This document shows, in pieces, positions 14,045-18,598 of a stretch of DNA of 39,259 nucleotides. Source of the DNA: Nitrospira sp. GTDB lineage: Bacteria; Nitrospirota; Nitrospiria; Nitrospirales; Nitrospiraceae. The notes beneath the pieces are model-generated. The model was not told the origin of the DNA, searched no databases, and was given only the letters and a program-made list of their open reading frames with translations. The DNA lies in contig JAUYAO010000060.1 of NCBI GenBank assembly GCA_030692565.1, forward strand, positions 1 to 39,259, written 5' to 3'. The stretch's first letter is position 1, and each line of letters opens with the position of its first letter. The position numbers and the translations under genes are program-made.

Positions 14045-14734
14045 TTATTTCTTAGTAGCATGGGGAGCAAGGGCTTCAAGGCTCTTGACCCAGGAACTAA
14101 AATGAGGGCATTTGCTTCGCAGGGCTGAGAGGCCGATGGCTCCGGCCGCAGCTGCGCCAACGCGTACTTTGCTTTTTTCGTAGATGGGCACGTGGCGAAT
14201 AATGCGCTTGCTGGGAGCTATGGTTGCCCCTTCGTTTATTTCTTCTGGGGGAATATTTTTGACTTCGTGTGCGAGTTTCCTAAATCCAGCCTCTGATCCT
14301 GAAATCCGCTTCTGGAGTTGTGAAAGGTCACAGTAAAGCAAGGCTTCAAATTCGTGAAGCTGGATATATGGGAGGAAGCGATCATCTGCAAAGTCGGCTT
14401 TAAGCGATTCTTCCAGCACTCTTATGCGATCATGAGGATACGTTAATTGCTTCGCTTTGGTCCAGCCAGGGAATTGATTGGGCAGTGCATACAGATCAAT
14501 CATAGTGGTAAACCGGGCTTCTGCCTGCTGGTCTTCGAGCATGAGTCGGTGAAGGTCGCCTCTAATCTTGTCGTAGTCAATGATGCCGCCACGTTTCCCA
14601 AGCTTTCGGTTGGTAAGGACAACTCGTGCCTTCACATCGATGTAATGGTTTGCTAGATGCGGGCGTAATACTTCTTCAGCAAACCTTCGCTCTGATTGCC
14701 CTTCGGTCGTAACGTAGAGCCGAACCCATTTCAT
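14045..14734 (-). CDS. DUF4276 protein, putative effector of an ATPase pair
   Basis: Protein of 229 residues of the DUF4276 family. Visible hallmarks: the N-terminal VTTEGQSERRFAEEVL (Glu11-Gly-Gln-Ser-Glu15), resembling the acidic motif of TOPRIM-like nucleases; FTTMIDLYALP at 74-84; and FLPYIQLHEFEALLYCD at 119-135, the strongest family signature. The start codon overlaps the ATPase stop codon (TGATG), so the two are translationally coupled. Similar ATPase-plus-TOPRIM-like pairs act in phage defence (PARIS, OLD/Gabija-like and AbiL/RloAB types). The nuclease role here is inference. AT content is visibly higher than in flanking genes, suggesting transfer. Confidence 0.82.
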   Translation of the reverse strand: MKWVRLYVTTEGQSERRFAEEVLRPHLANHYIDVKARVVLTNRKLGKRGGIIDYDKIRGDLHRLMLEDQQAEARFTTMIDLYALPNQFPGWTKAKQLTYPHDRIRVLEESLKADFADDRFLPYIQLHEFEALLYCDLSQLQKRISGSEAGFRKLAHEVKNIPPEEINEGATIAPSKRIIRHVPIYEKSKVRVGAAAAGAIGLSALRSKCPHFSSWVKSLEALAPHATKK

Positions 14735-15834
14735 CAGGGTTGGCCTCCGAGCTCATTCTTTTCCCACAGTTGACCCAAGGTGTATTCTTTGAGCCATGCT
14801 TCAAGCCTACTCCGGTCTTGACGTGCCAGAACTGTTTCGCCATCTTGATGGTTTGCGACAATTACCTGCTCAGGCTCAAACTCATCAAGCAATACTGATG
14901 ACTGTGTCGAAACGATCAGTTGAGCTCGATCAGATGCTTCGTGCAGCAGGCTGGCCAAGAGTTTGATGGCTTGAGGGTGTAGCCCGAGTTCAGGTTCGTC
15001 TATAAGGATTGTTGAAGGTGGGTTTGGTTGTAGGAGAAGGGTAGCGAGACAGATATAGCGCACTGTTCCGTCGGAGAGTTGATGAGGGTAGTACAGAAGA
15101 TCGGAGTACCGGTCTTTCCAGAGCAACTGGGTTTCCCCTGAGCCCACTTCCTTAAGGACAAATGTACCGAAAAATGGTGCGACCTGGCGAACGGTCTCAA
15201 GAATTTGTTCATAATGTTCTGTATAGCGATTAGACAGGTCCATGAGGAATGCAGCAATATTTGCGGCGTTGCTATGTAGTACGTCATTGTCAACGATATT
15301 ACACCTGCCCATGACTGGGGCTGATGGGGAGGTGTCATGAAAGTGATAAACTCGCCAGTCTCGGATGGTGCTTACCACCCACTGTTGCGAGCTGCTGAGG
15401 TTGGTTGATCTGGCCAAGGGACTTTCTAGGTGTCCACTACCTTGGTCGTTCTTTATGGGGCCATAGAGAGGGCCTTTGAATGGTGCAGATTCTTGGGCAA
15501 AAAAGAGAGACCTATCATCAGCTGCTCGCAGGGTGAATGTATATTCGTTAAGTCCAAACTTAAGATGTGCTTTGAACTCTGGTGTTACTTTCATGCCTTG
15601 AAAAAGGAAAGCGTCAGCACGGCCACGGCTGCTGACGTAATTCTGCAATCCTTTGTTGGCATCCATGATGTTGCCAAGCAATTCAAAGAATCGAATGAAG
15701 TTGGTTTTCCCTGATCCGTTGGCTCCGATGAGAACGTTGAGTCCACAGTGCATTGGGAAGGACTCAAGTTCCCGAAACGATTTGTAGCCGGAAAGGGAAA
15801 CATTTTCCAAAGGGTGTTTTTCTCGGACCTTCAT
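14734..15834 (-). CDS. AAA family ATPase (AAA_21/COG4637, SMC/OLD-like)
   Basis: Predicted ABC/SMC-type ATPase of 366 residues. Visible parts: N-terminal LSGYKSFRELESF; Walker A GANGSGKT (37-44); a divergent middle region 60-245; an ABC-signature-like LSDGT (253-257); Walker B TILIDEPELGLHP (275-287) with catalytic Glu280; and a switch-like STQS (309-312). It is the first gene of a two-gene operon, with DUF4276 overlapping its stop codon by one base. In defence systems such ATPases sense a phage product and control the partner nuclease; a similar role here is inference. The gene is AT-richer than its surroundings, indicating recent acquisition. Confidence 0.88.
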   Translation of the reverse strand: MKVREKHPLENVSLSGYKSFRELESFPMHCGLNVLIGANGSGKTNFIRFFELLGNIMDANKGLQNYVSSRGRADAFLFQGMKVTPEFKAHLKFGLNEYTFTLRAADDRSLFFAQESAPFKGPLYGPIKNDQGSGHLESPLARSTNLSSSQQWVVSTIRDWRVYHFHDTSPSAPVMGRCNIVDNDVLHSNAANIAAFLMDLSNRYTEHYEQILETVRQVAPFFGTFVLKEVGSGETQLLWKDRYSDLLYYPHQLSDGTVRYICLATLLLQPNPPSTILIDEPELGLHPQAIKLLASLLHEASDRAQLIVSTQSSVLLDEFEPEQVIVANHQDGETVLARQDRSRLEAWLKEYTLGQLWEKNELGGQP

Positions 15835-16136: not shown

Positions 16137-16799
16137 CTATTTCACCGTGAATTCCAGGAAATACTGTTTCGGTAGGAAGCTGTGCTCGTGTGCGAGTTGA
16201 TACCCTGCTGCGGCCAGTTCCTGGACGACGGTGTCTCGCGCGACGAGATGGTGTTTGGGGAACCCGAGGTCGCCGGATCGTTCGTCCGGGTAGAAGTCGA
16301 TGATGGCGATGCGCGCTCCTGGTTTTAAGGACGACCGGAGATCGCGGAAGTATTTTGACCGGTTCTCAAGGTGATGGATGGTGTTGCAGACGAAGAGGAG
16401 ATCAACGGATTCATATGGCAGCTTAGGATTATCCGGCTGCGCGAGGATGAACTCGGCCGTGTAGGCGGTGTGCATATGGATGACGCTCTCTTTGGCGTAG
16501 GCCAGCATCTCCGGTTCGACATCCACGGCATAGACCATTCCGGTCTCGGTGACAGCTTCGATGAAGCGGCGGGTGAAGTAGCCTGATCCTGAGCCGAGAT
16601 CGGCGACGGCCATGCCCGGTTTCAATCTGAGCGCATCGATCACCTCGGCGGGCTTCTGATAGCGATCCCGCTCCGTACTGTCGAGATGCTCCAGATATTG
16701 TTTGATGTCGTCCGGACGCCGATGCTGGTGCTGGTCTTCAGCGAGCGCAGAACCGGCGAGGGTGACGCACAAGGCTGCGAGCAGAATTGTCGTCTTCAT
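16137..16799 (-). CDS. Class I SAM-dependent methyltransferase with a signal peptide
   Basis: Protein of 220 residues from the ATG at 16799, chosen because AAGAGG lies 8 nt upstream and the next residues form a clear signal peptide (MKTTILLAALCVTLAGSALA, cleavage before EDQHQHRR). The rest is a Methyltransf_11/25-type domain: motif I VADLGSGSGYFTRRF, an acidic residue ending beta 2 (VYAVDVEPEM), motif IV DLLFVCNTIHHLENR and post-motif ARIAIIDFYPDER. A signal peptide on a SAM-dependent enzyme is odd because SAM is cytosolic. Substrate unknown. A longer in-frame start at 16877 would bury the signal sequence and is less likely. Confidence 0.85.
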   Translation of the reverse strand: MKTTILLAALCVTLAGSALAEDQHQHRRPDDIKQYLEHLDSTERDRYQKPAEVIDALRLKPGMAVADLGSGSGYFTRRFIEAVTETGMVYAVDVEPEMLAYAKESVIHMHTAYTAEFILAQPDNPKLPYESVDLLFVCNTIHHLENRSKYFRDLRSSLKPGARIAIIDFYPDERSGDLGFPKHHLVARDTVVQELAAAGYQLAHEHSFLPKQYFLEFTVK

Positions 16800-17064
16800 G
16801 AAGCAGGCCTCTTGGGTGAAAAGTGTTGGTGAAACATGAGGAATGTACCAGGAGTTGTTGGTTGATGTCTCCAGCACCGCTGAGACAACCTCTTCTCAAA
16901 CAATTCTCGCCGATGTATCCTGCCGCAGTTTATTTCGGGGGCAGGTTTCTGGGTTGTTCTTACGATGACGGGATGAGGTTCGGCGCAATAAAGATGACGC
17001 GCTGACTGCGTATGGCCGATGGCTTATGGGACAAGCGTGATCCGATGGTTGAATCGGTGATGTC

Positions 17065-17413
17065 ATGAAGCTGCCATATGCAGACCGGTTGGTGATTCCC
17101 AAGTCCAAGGTGGCCCAGTATCTGCTGTCTTCGACCCACCGAACGGGTAAAGGGAAGGCCGAGTTTTTTTATTGCACATGGTTTTACCGCTTCTGGATGG
17201 GAAGGGTTGGCAGACGCTTTGCGGCAACATGCGAAGGAGCAGGTTGTGACGGTTGCTGAGAACACATCGTTTGGCACCCGCTACGCAATCGAAGGGCCTC
17301 TCGTCTCGCCGAACGGCCGACAATTGCAAGTTCGAACGGTCTGGTTTATAGATGAAGGTGGCCAGTCGCCGCGATTTGTGACCGCCTATCCCCTGAAACG
17401 GAGGACGCCATGA
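17065..17413 (+). pseudogene. DUF6883 gene with a +1 frameshift in a T7 run
   Basis: Two frames join into one DUF6883 protein. Frame 1 from the ATG at 17065 gives MKLPYADRLVIPKSKVAQYL...GKGKAE; the run of seven T at 17164-17170 then puts translation out of frame, and frame 1 stops at 17259. With six T the reading continues FFIAHGFTASGWEGLADALRQHA, then FGTRYAIEGPL and VWFIDEGGQSPRFVTAYPL, ending at 17413 (115 residues, full family length). The rest of both halves is intact, so the lesion is recent, a sequencing error, or a slippage site. The DUF4926 gene starts with an ATGA overlap at its end. Family function unknown. Confidence 0.82.
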
Positions 17414-17646
17414 TTCAGGAGTTAGAAGACGTGATTCTGGAATGCGACCTTCCCAAGCACGGGCTCAGGCGAGGAGACATTGGGGCTGTGGTGTTGATTC
17501 ATCGCGGCGGCGAAGGCTATGAGGTCGAATTTACGACATTGGATGGTGAGACGGTGGCGGTCGTGACGCTGTTGGCTTCTCAGGTTCGTCCGGCGCACAA
17601 ACGTGAGATCGCCCACGCGCGCGAACTGGCTGGTTCGGCTTCGTAG
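17410..17646 (+). CDS. DUF4926 domain protein
   Basis: Protein of 78 residues matching DUF4926: IQELEDVILECDLPKHGLRRGDIGAVVLIH, then YEVEFTTLDGETVAVVTL and the final VRPAHKREIAHAR. The predicted fold is a small beta barrel. It begins inside the DUF6883 stop codon (4-bp ATGA overlap), so its translation normally depends on the frameshifted upstream gene. DUF6883/DUF4926 pairs are recurrent two-gene cassettes in bacteria and are suspected, but not shown, to be toxin-antitoxin-like. The gene itself is intact. Confidence 0.85.
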   Translation: MIQELEDVILECDLPKHGLRRGDIGAVVLIHRGGEGYEVEFTTLDGETVAVVTLLASQVRPAHKREIAHARELAGSAS

Positions 17647-17734
17647 TTCTATCCCTCCCCTGAAATCTTTCCCCGCTTATCGTGGTCTTTCGCGACTTTC
17701 TGGCCTGATAGTTTGTGTGGGCGCGGCAGTCCCC

Positions 17735-18598
17735 CTATCTCGCCGATTTCGGCGGCAGCCGTTCGCTCAGTACCGGATACTTGGCTTCGGATACGCCGAA
17801 GTTACCGCTGGACGGATCGGCGGCGACGACGCGGAGGGTGATGCCGTCGGGCGCATCTTTAGGGAGCGGGACGAAGAAGGGCGCTTCGAAGGCGGCTTTG
17901 TCGCCGCTGTAGAACAGCTGCAAGCGCTCCATCACCTTCGTGCCGATGAGCAGCTCGCCGTAGATGTGGACTTTACGCGAGTCCCAATCGCCATGGGGAC
18001 GGACGAGTGCGCCGGAGAGGGTGCGGACGGATGCGCGTAGGACCACGTCGTCTTTCGCGATGAGGCCGCCGCCGACAGATTTCGGATGCTCGATCTGGAT
18101 GATGTAGCCGTAGAGCGTCAACACAATGCCGTCGCTGGTCAGGTCATGGCCGGGAATTAGCCAGGCGCGGGTGGAGACGCGTTGAGATGCGGCTGGAAAT
18201 GCGAGTGGTCCTTCGGCTGCAATATCCACGAGTGTCGGAGTAACCAGGTCGAGCGTGGCGGTGAAGACGGCAGCGGGACGGCTGCTGTAGTGAGCCTCTT
18301 CCATCAGGCGCGGGGTGCGCATGATCTGATTCTGATCGCCGGCATCGCCTTGTTGGATGCCGGTGGCGAGGATCTGGCCGCTGGCCACGTCGGTGATCGT
18401 CACGCGCGCGCCGCCGACCTCTTTGCCCAGCACCATGGAGCCATGGGCAACGACGCGCACGAGGATGGTCGTGGGTTTCGGATCATTCAGATGGAGGTCT
18501 GGCGGCGCGTCTTCCTGCGCGGGGAGGGCGAGACAGGGCAGAGGCATCAGGAGGAGTGAGAGGACGAGAACGCGGAGCCTGATACCCGCTCGGTTCAT
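17735..18598 (-). CDS. Conserved secreted protein of unknown function
   Basis: Protein of 287 residues with a signal peptide (LRVLVLSLLLMPLPCLALPA, cleavage near 25). The mature chain alternates short beta-strand-like stretches, for example TTILVRVVAHGSMVLG, GARVTITDVASGQ, DGIVLTLYGYIIQIEHP and GITLRVVAADPSSGNFG, suggesting immunoglobulin-like or other all-beta domains in the periplasm. No catalytic motif was recognised. Its start overlaps the metG stop by 4 bp (ATGA), so it is the last gene of the tmk-holB-metG unit. I do not recognise the family. Confidence 0.8.
   Translation of the reverse strand: MNRAGIRLRVLVLSLLLMPLPCLALPAQEDAPPDLHLNDPKPTTILVRVVAHGSMVLGKEVGGARVTITDVASGQILATGIQQGDAGDQNQIMRTPRLMEEAHYSSRPAAVFTATLDLVTPTLVDIAAEGPLAFPAASQRVSTRAWLIPGHDLTSDGIVLTLYGYIIQIEHPKSVGGGLIAKDDVVLRASVRTLSGALVRPHGDWDSRKVHIYGELLIGTKVMERLQLFYSGDKAAFEAPFFVPLPKDAPDGITLRVVAADPSSGNFGVSEAKYPVLSERLPPKSAR

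Follow-up and report, generated by a model that had tools for sequence, protein, structure and literature searches.

We consider it slightly better than an even prospect that the protein described here is a periplasmic class I methyltransferase that is exported by Sec, most likely binds S-adenosylmethionine (SAM) and has as its methyl acceptor either a small molecule or a component of the envelope. Judging from the sequences compared, the branch of the superfamily to which it belongs is mostly exported, and the protein itself is probably enzymatically active. Its gene lies in a 39,259-nucleotide stretch of DNA of Nitrospira sp., a nitrite oxidiser, analysed as a whole and hereafter called the window, which is one contig of a 4.17-Mb genome; the closest named matches are Nitrospira MAGs, and the Nitrospira moscoviensis orthologue (L038) is 77% identical to the window protein. 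The original prediction had placed the gene at 16137-16799 and was silent on the strand. These coordinates are exact, and the gene lies on the minus strand, with its ATG at 16799, its stop codon at 16139-16137 and a product of 220 aa; on the plus strand, the frame that begins at 16137 contains five stops. The gene and its N-terminal features are as follows:

16137 to 16799, minus strand: class I methyltransferase gene of the exported type, 220 aa, stop codon included
16740 to 16799, minus strand: signal peptide MKTTILLAALCVTLAGSALA, predicted by rule to be cut after residue 20 (ALA-ED), of the same kind in close orthologues
16140 to 16739, minus strand: predicted mature protein, residues 21-220, with EDQHQHRRPDD as its first residues
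16808 to 16813, minus strand: ribosome-binding site AAGAGG, 8 nt 5' of the ATG, with AAGAGG also found in several close relatives

The N-terminus, MKTTILLAALCVTLAGSALA-ED, holds one Lys, an 11-residue core with a mean Kyte-Doolittle value of 2.83 and ALA before ED, that is, the positive n-region, hydrophobic core and AxA site of the Sec/signal-peptidase-I type according to our own simple rules, which underlie all signal calls in this study. A core of 2.83 was reached by 47 of 10,000 shuffles of the whole protein (0.47%). The textbook signal peptide followed by a complete class I methyltransferase domain, as originally predicted, is borne out by these rules, by Pfam and by the structural model. 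On the distinction between Sec and Tat, which the original prediction had left to be made, the rule-based call is Sec/signal-peptidase-I: a twin-arginine motif was sought before the core and is absent, residues 1-26 being free of Arg. Because the twin arginine is absent, Sec is the likely export route of the window protein.

The relatives of the protein were picked out of the collected loci by tblastn with the window protein, which matched 136 loci, 90 of them with distinct sequence. Of these, 85 were kept, after two partial loci (L027, L040) and three of the arsenite-methyltransferase type, judged by eye (L028-L030), had been left out. The resulting 85 rows consist of 78 close members (30-100% identity, window gene included) and 7 distant outgroup rows (25-30%); in 31 loci, 27 from the main set and 4 from the outgroup, the start was assigned manually, and many of the 78 rows are close kin, representing far fewer than 78 independent events. 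By our rules, an export-type N-terminus is present in 78/78 rows of the main set versus 0/7 of the outgroup, with hydrophobic cores of 2.14-3.47 and 0.09-1.72, respectively. The 78 signals comprise 45 of the signal-peptidase-I type, 32 lipoboxes (including four that were missed by the first pattern and relabelled) and one that is Tat-like (L047). The latter protein (from G283, 75% identical) carries the Tat-like TRRGFL where its relatives have Sec-type signals. The suggestion of the original prediction that the protein might be exported folded and already loaded with its cofactor finds no support in these data, given the missing twin arginine in the window protein, the single row of the 78 that has one and the 32 rows with a lipobox.

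The same comparison bears on another reading, to which we give a very slim chance: that the protein faces the cytoplasm, and that its N-terminus is hydrophobic by coincidence or serves as an anchor that is never cleaved. About 9% of 3,900 whole-protein shuffles of family members reach a core of 2.0, and a single hydrophobic start on its own is therefore weak evidence of export; moreover, all calls are rule-based. However, this reading is difficult to reconcile with 78/78 rows, three kinds of signal and 0/7 in the outgroup, or with the contrast found within the window's genome, where none of 33 other methyltransferase places has such a core with its best start and four pass 2.0 with another start. 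The profiles Methyltransf_11 and Methyltransf_25 have 30 and 34 matches in this genome, which combine to 35 places; 34 were checked, namely all 30 of Methyltransf_11 and four more of Methyltransf_25, the fifth being without a locus. With best-scoring starts, the core exceeds 2.0 in the window gene alone (1/34; 2.83, the next value being 1.99), and if any start is allowed, the four other places reach 2.08-2.36.

A maximum-likelihood tree was computed by a quick method from the domain, with the signal region left out. In it, the 7 outgroup rows all fall on the same side of a branch whose SH-aLRT value is 98; the tree program warned of long branches (L086, L081, L082 and others), and the deep order is unsure. 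On this tree, all four labels together need 7 changes, and the lipobox label alone needs 5, at least 3 of them forced by starred branches; one group of 23 rows is entirely lipobox. These changes suggest that export was retained in the branch while the kind of signal was swapped. Export was then tested on 30 further places that had not been examined before, 20 of them mostly of low identity; three (L238-L240) were too partial, leaving 27 usable, of which 8 have an export-type N-terminus and 19 have none. Those of the exported type are L231-L237, which belong to the lipobox group (L232 qualifying only if its best-scoring start is replaced by another), and L211, at 28% identity, which was judged by eye from its ORF and has Leu for Tyr in motif I. 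Eighteen of the 19 signal-less members are distant or resemble arsenite methyltransferases. The remaining one, L212, shares 37% identity with a lipobox member; it keeps motif I, and no signal was found with any start tried. Export is thus the norm for the branch, and at least one member (L212) departs from it.

Slow or partial export, or a dual location, could let the protein work in the cytoplasm, either ahead of its export, as the original prediction had considered, or in place of it. Such a protein would have its cofactor at hand, as SAM is located in the cytoplasm according to an excerpt of a study on the prepilin peptidase PilD (PMC3584216), and the fairly close L212 without a signal fits such a protein. 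We nevertheless judge this decidedly unlikely, as the lipobox in 32 of the 78 rows and the swaps between signal kinds suggest selection for a location outside the cytoplasm, and codons 21-50 of the window gene offer no ATG, GTG or TTG from which a cytoplasmic form with R44-P50 intact could be produced. These three residues, R44, Q48 and P50, are kept in 78, 77 and 76 of the 78 rows, respectively.

The start codon itself could be assessed from the junction with the gene upstream, which in the window is interrupted:

17735 to 18598, minus strand: upstream partner gene, 287 aa, with a signal-peptide-like start; in relatives, its stop codon and the ATG of the methyltransferase gene overlap
16815 to 17750, no strand assigned: ~936 bp that part the methyltransferase gene from its partner, read as an insertion by comparison with relatives, with ends placed to within a few bases

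Partner and methyltransferase genes were both recovered in 23 distinct loci, that of the window among them. Relative to the upstream stop, the ATG lies at -4 nt (an ATGA overlap) in 10 of these, at +2 nt in 2 and at other values in 11. Ten of these other offsets range from 47 to 6354 nt, including the window at 935 nt, and the eleventh (L040) is unreliable, its methyltransferase match starting only at residue 62. Beside the insertion in the window, CCAAGAGG and the ATG were left intact. The ATG at 16799 is well supported as the true start because of the 4-nt overlap in 10/23 loci and the ribosome-binding site kept in the window. An in-frame GTG lies 26 codons 5' of the ATG, with the frame open between them, and AAGAGG stands 8 nt before the ATG. 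A start 3' of the hydrophobic stretch, which the original prediction had named as a refutation of its reading, is not borne out: against it stand the retained ribosome-binding site, the ten overlaps, the startless codons 21-50 and the conservation of R44, Q48 and P50. The insertion has no blastn match in the other loci compared. It holds two small plus-strand ORFs (17207-17413 and 17410-17646) that overlap by 4 nt and carry DUF6883 (profile positions 47-110 only) and DUF4926, perhaps as a two-gene module. A 400-nt gap occurs at the same junction in L004 (G030) and has no blastn match to the window insertion.

The assignment to the class I methyltransferases is supported by Pfam and by structure prediction. 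Methyltransf_11 matches residues 67-166 with an E value of 7e-15 and 55.8 bits, against a cut-off of 21.2 bits, and an AlphaFold2 model built from 11 sequences (pLDDT 80.4, pTM 0.77; residues 11-27 below pLDDT 50) has seven core strands in the order of the seven-stranded Rossmann-like fold, with methyltransferases as its leading Foldseek matches. There is nothing unusual in a methyltransferase of this fold. Among solved proteins, the nearest relative is 3dh0, a SAM-dependent methyltransferase of Aquifex aeolicus whose title names no function beyond that, both by phmmer (E 4e-20, residues 36-185) and by Foldseek (rank 1, E 2e-15, TM 0.83 by target length, 29% identity); it differs in that the match begins at chain residue 12, so that the solved chain is too short at its N-terminus to include a signal peptide. 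A fold match was also obtained with 3ocj of Bordetella parapertussis, titled 'possible exported protein' (Foldseek rank 49, E 2.2e-9), although its identity is 17% and its export is stated by the title alone. Among the best 25 of the 50 matched NCBIfam families, none reached its cut-off. UbiE/MenG (equivalog, 46.8 bits) and the arsenite methyltransferase ArsM (subfamily, 45.3 bits) are among the top scores, yet they fall far below the respective cut-offs of 216 and 263 bits, and both identities were rejected. Protein-L-isoaspartate O-methyltransferase was likewise dismissed (equivalog, 22.8 versus 159.05 bits); the Pfam profile PCMT scores above its cut-off (31.6 versus 20.3), but over residues 51-110 only. 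The UbiE/MenG and ArsM families act in the cytoplasm.

The residues expected around the SAM site, and two further conserved positions, are located as follows:

16575 to 16601, minus strand: SAM motif I, residues 67-75 (DLGSGSGYF), with D67, G69, G73 and Y74 in 78/78 exported rows
16521 to 16523, minus strand: acidic residue 93, directly after strand 2, Asp in 72/78 and Glu in 6/78 rows
16374 to 16376, minus strand: H142, kept in 78/78 exported and 7/7 outgroup rows
16164 to 16166, minus strand: Q212, in 78/78 exported rows of the main set, an imperfect export marker

Motif I, which we take to have its usual role in SAM binding, and an acid after strand 2 are thus both present, with D67, G69, G73 and the acid at position 93 conserved in all 78 rows; G71 is Gly in 70 of them. 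Between the window gene and 11 orthologues, dN/dS is 0.07-0.12 for the mature domain, whereas the signal peptide is freer (0.09-1.14). Together with the invariant residues, these values are what one expects for a SAM site in use. The original prediction had also considered that the protein might bind another ligand than SAM, for which the conservation of the SAM-site residues leaves no support. A related possibility is an exported enzyme that uses another group donor or a nucleotide-like cofactor found outside the cytoplasm. The problem of supply would then vanish, and the sequence data give no pointer to such a cofactor; motif I and the acid at position 93 are kept, and the closest solved relative is titled a SAM-dependent methyltransferase, which makes this highly unlikely. 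We regard as unlikely, to a lesser degree, that the protein is exported but non-catalytic, its fold serving in the periplasm to bind or sense SAM, SAH or a nucleoside like them. It would suit such a protein that SAM is not known in the periplasm, that the ligand motif is among the best-kept residues and that binding needs no turnover. On the other hand, H142 lies outside motif I and is invariant in exported and outgroup rows alike, as expected if catalysis is kept, and no sensor gene occurs among the ten window genes scanned.

Q212 was at first considered as a marker of export, given its presence in 78/78 rows versus 0/7 of the outgroup, and was abandoned when the further places contradicted it in both directions: L211 is of the exported type without Q212, and L212, L225 and L229 have Q212 but no signal. 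The start of the mature protein (window 16719-16739, minus strand) is rich in His and might bind metal. By a rough cleavage rule, at least two His occur within ~22 residues near the cleavage site in 39/45 rows of the signal-peptidase-I type versus 5/32 lipobox rows.

The gene has a patchy distribution. In the phylum of Nitrospira, 80 of 295 genomes matched at E 1e-12, distant types and fragments among them, and ten of the 78 rows come from a second phylum, where a threshold of E 1e-25 gave matches in 9 of 149 genomes. A partial gene match stands beside a full copy in one genome (G026:C93:89381-89530) and is the sole match listed in four others (G067:C3:64332-64508, G320:C31:39609-39764, G251:C227:1652-1792 and G303:C10:168821-169138); three of these five are the 3' end of the gene. 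Such remnants suggest loss or recombination in several Nitrospira lineages. Twelve plasmid records also matched, of which seven were examined, with two of Bradyrhizobium, two with Delftia-like scores and one of Halostagnicola left out. Export-type stretches begin the Methylosinus and Delftia plasmid proteins, which both belong to the main set, and inspection by eye gave the same result for the Bradyrhizobium and Geminocystis proteins; no export-type start was found in the Halopiger and Peptoclostridium proteins or in a Rhizobium stretch that has no annotated gene.

The genomic neighbourhood varies by lineage. Close relatives have tmk, holB and metG, followed by the gene of a 287-residue secreted-type protein and then by the methyltransferase gene; holB was identified with Pfam, the other two of the first three by eye. 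The 287-residue partner starts like a secreted protein and, according to its model, is perhaps an Ig-like beta sandwich. Nothing on function was drawn from it, as it has no Pfam family, an AlphaFold2 model of low confidence (pLDDT 64) and weak Foldseek matches, the best 50 of which have TM values, by query length, of 0.18-0.27. A cation-efflux gene and a CobW gene directly follow the methyltransferase in L033, L035, L036, L037, L088 and L092; a role in metal homeostasis, considered from these neighbours and the His-rich mature start, was not kept because the neighbours differ in other lineages. Upstream of lipobox members, an RND-pump gene with its adaptor (L109, L110) or an adaptor-like gene (L108, L114, L115) was recognised by eye, and a HIT-type gene, also named by eye, follows the methyltransferase in L138 and L139. 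An amino-acid permease gene lies after the gene in Methylosinus L085 (annotated) and L113, and is divergently oriented in L102 (by BLAST cluster). Permeases of this APC type thus adjoin the gene in 3 of 53 neighbour loci (the methyltransferase itself was called in 51), and the supply of SAM by such a permease is an idea. The three loci represent distant lineages, and in Methylosinus (L085, 4860-6946) the permease gene overlaps that of the methyltransferase. Downstream of the methyltransferase in the window (14045-15834, minus strand), an AAA_21 ATPase gene is followed by a DUF4276 gene, a pair that recurs in L034 and its copy L125 and that resembles ATPase/DUF4276 defence-type modules. No gene partner is common across the lineages compared, and since the neighbours vary by lineage, they indicate no substrate.

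SAM is regarded as a cytoplasmic cofactor, and to our knowledge no periplasmic SAM pool has been described. The puzzle that the original prediction saw in an exported methyltransferase stands, as an export-type signal and a conserved SAM site occur together. Among the titles and opening abstract lines of the open-access papers listed, which leave out most subscription work, none concerns this branch, any other soluble periplasmic methyltransferase branch or a periplasmic SAM pool. Two known systems can be set beside the window protein. According to an excerpt of PMC13295639, Rv1988 of Mycobacterium tuberculosis is a secreted methyltransferase that works outside the bacterial cytoplasm; it differs in acting in the host nucleus (PMC13295639), where host SAM would be at hand, and is compared here by description and not by sequence. 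The prepilin peptidase/N-methylase PilD is predicted, in the excerpt cited above, to use SAM on an exported substrate, but it is an integral membrane enzyme that takes its SAM from the cytoplasm (PMC3584216).

Based on the signal and on established biology, we propose the following hypothetical sequence of events, in which the protein would (i) be synthesised in the cytoplasm as a precursor that bears a Sec-type signal peptide; (ii) pass unfolded through the inner membrane via Sec; (iii) lose its signal peptide to signal peptidase I; and (iv) fold in the periplasm. Because the SAM site is kept, the mature protein would then (v) most likely bind SAM there and (vi) transfer a methyl group to a small molecule or to an envelope or periplasmic target. 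As our own suggestions, SAM could reach the periplasm by leakage or through an exporter from the cytoplasm, or could enter from outside through porins. For the window protein, export, SAM binding and catalysis are all things that we infer from its sequence and that of its relatives.

In summary, the fold and the secreted Rv1988 were known, and what our study adds is a branch that keeps the SAM site and export while the kind of signal changes, with one fairly close member that lacks a signal. More tentatively, with confidence somewhat short of even, we suggest that Nitrospira and other bacteria perform SAM-dependent methylation in the periplasm. An exported branch that stays under purifying selection while its signals are swapped would then imply a periplasmic supply of SAM, by an exporter or by uptake from outside, and a methylation of the envelope of which we found no description. 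The small, soluble protein makes the question of whether SAM is present in the periplasm directly testable, and if the enzyme works, it would point to a new transporter and a new envelope modification.
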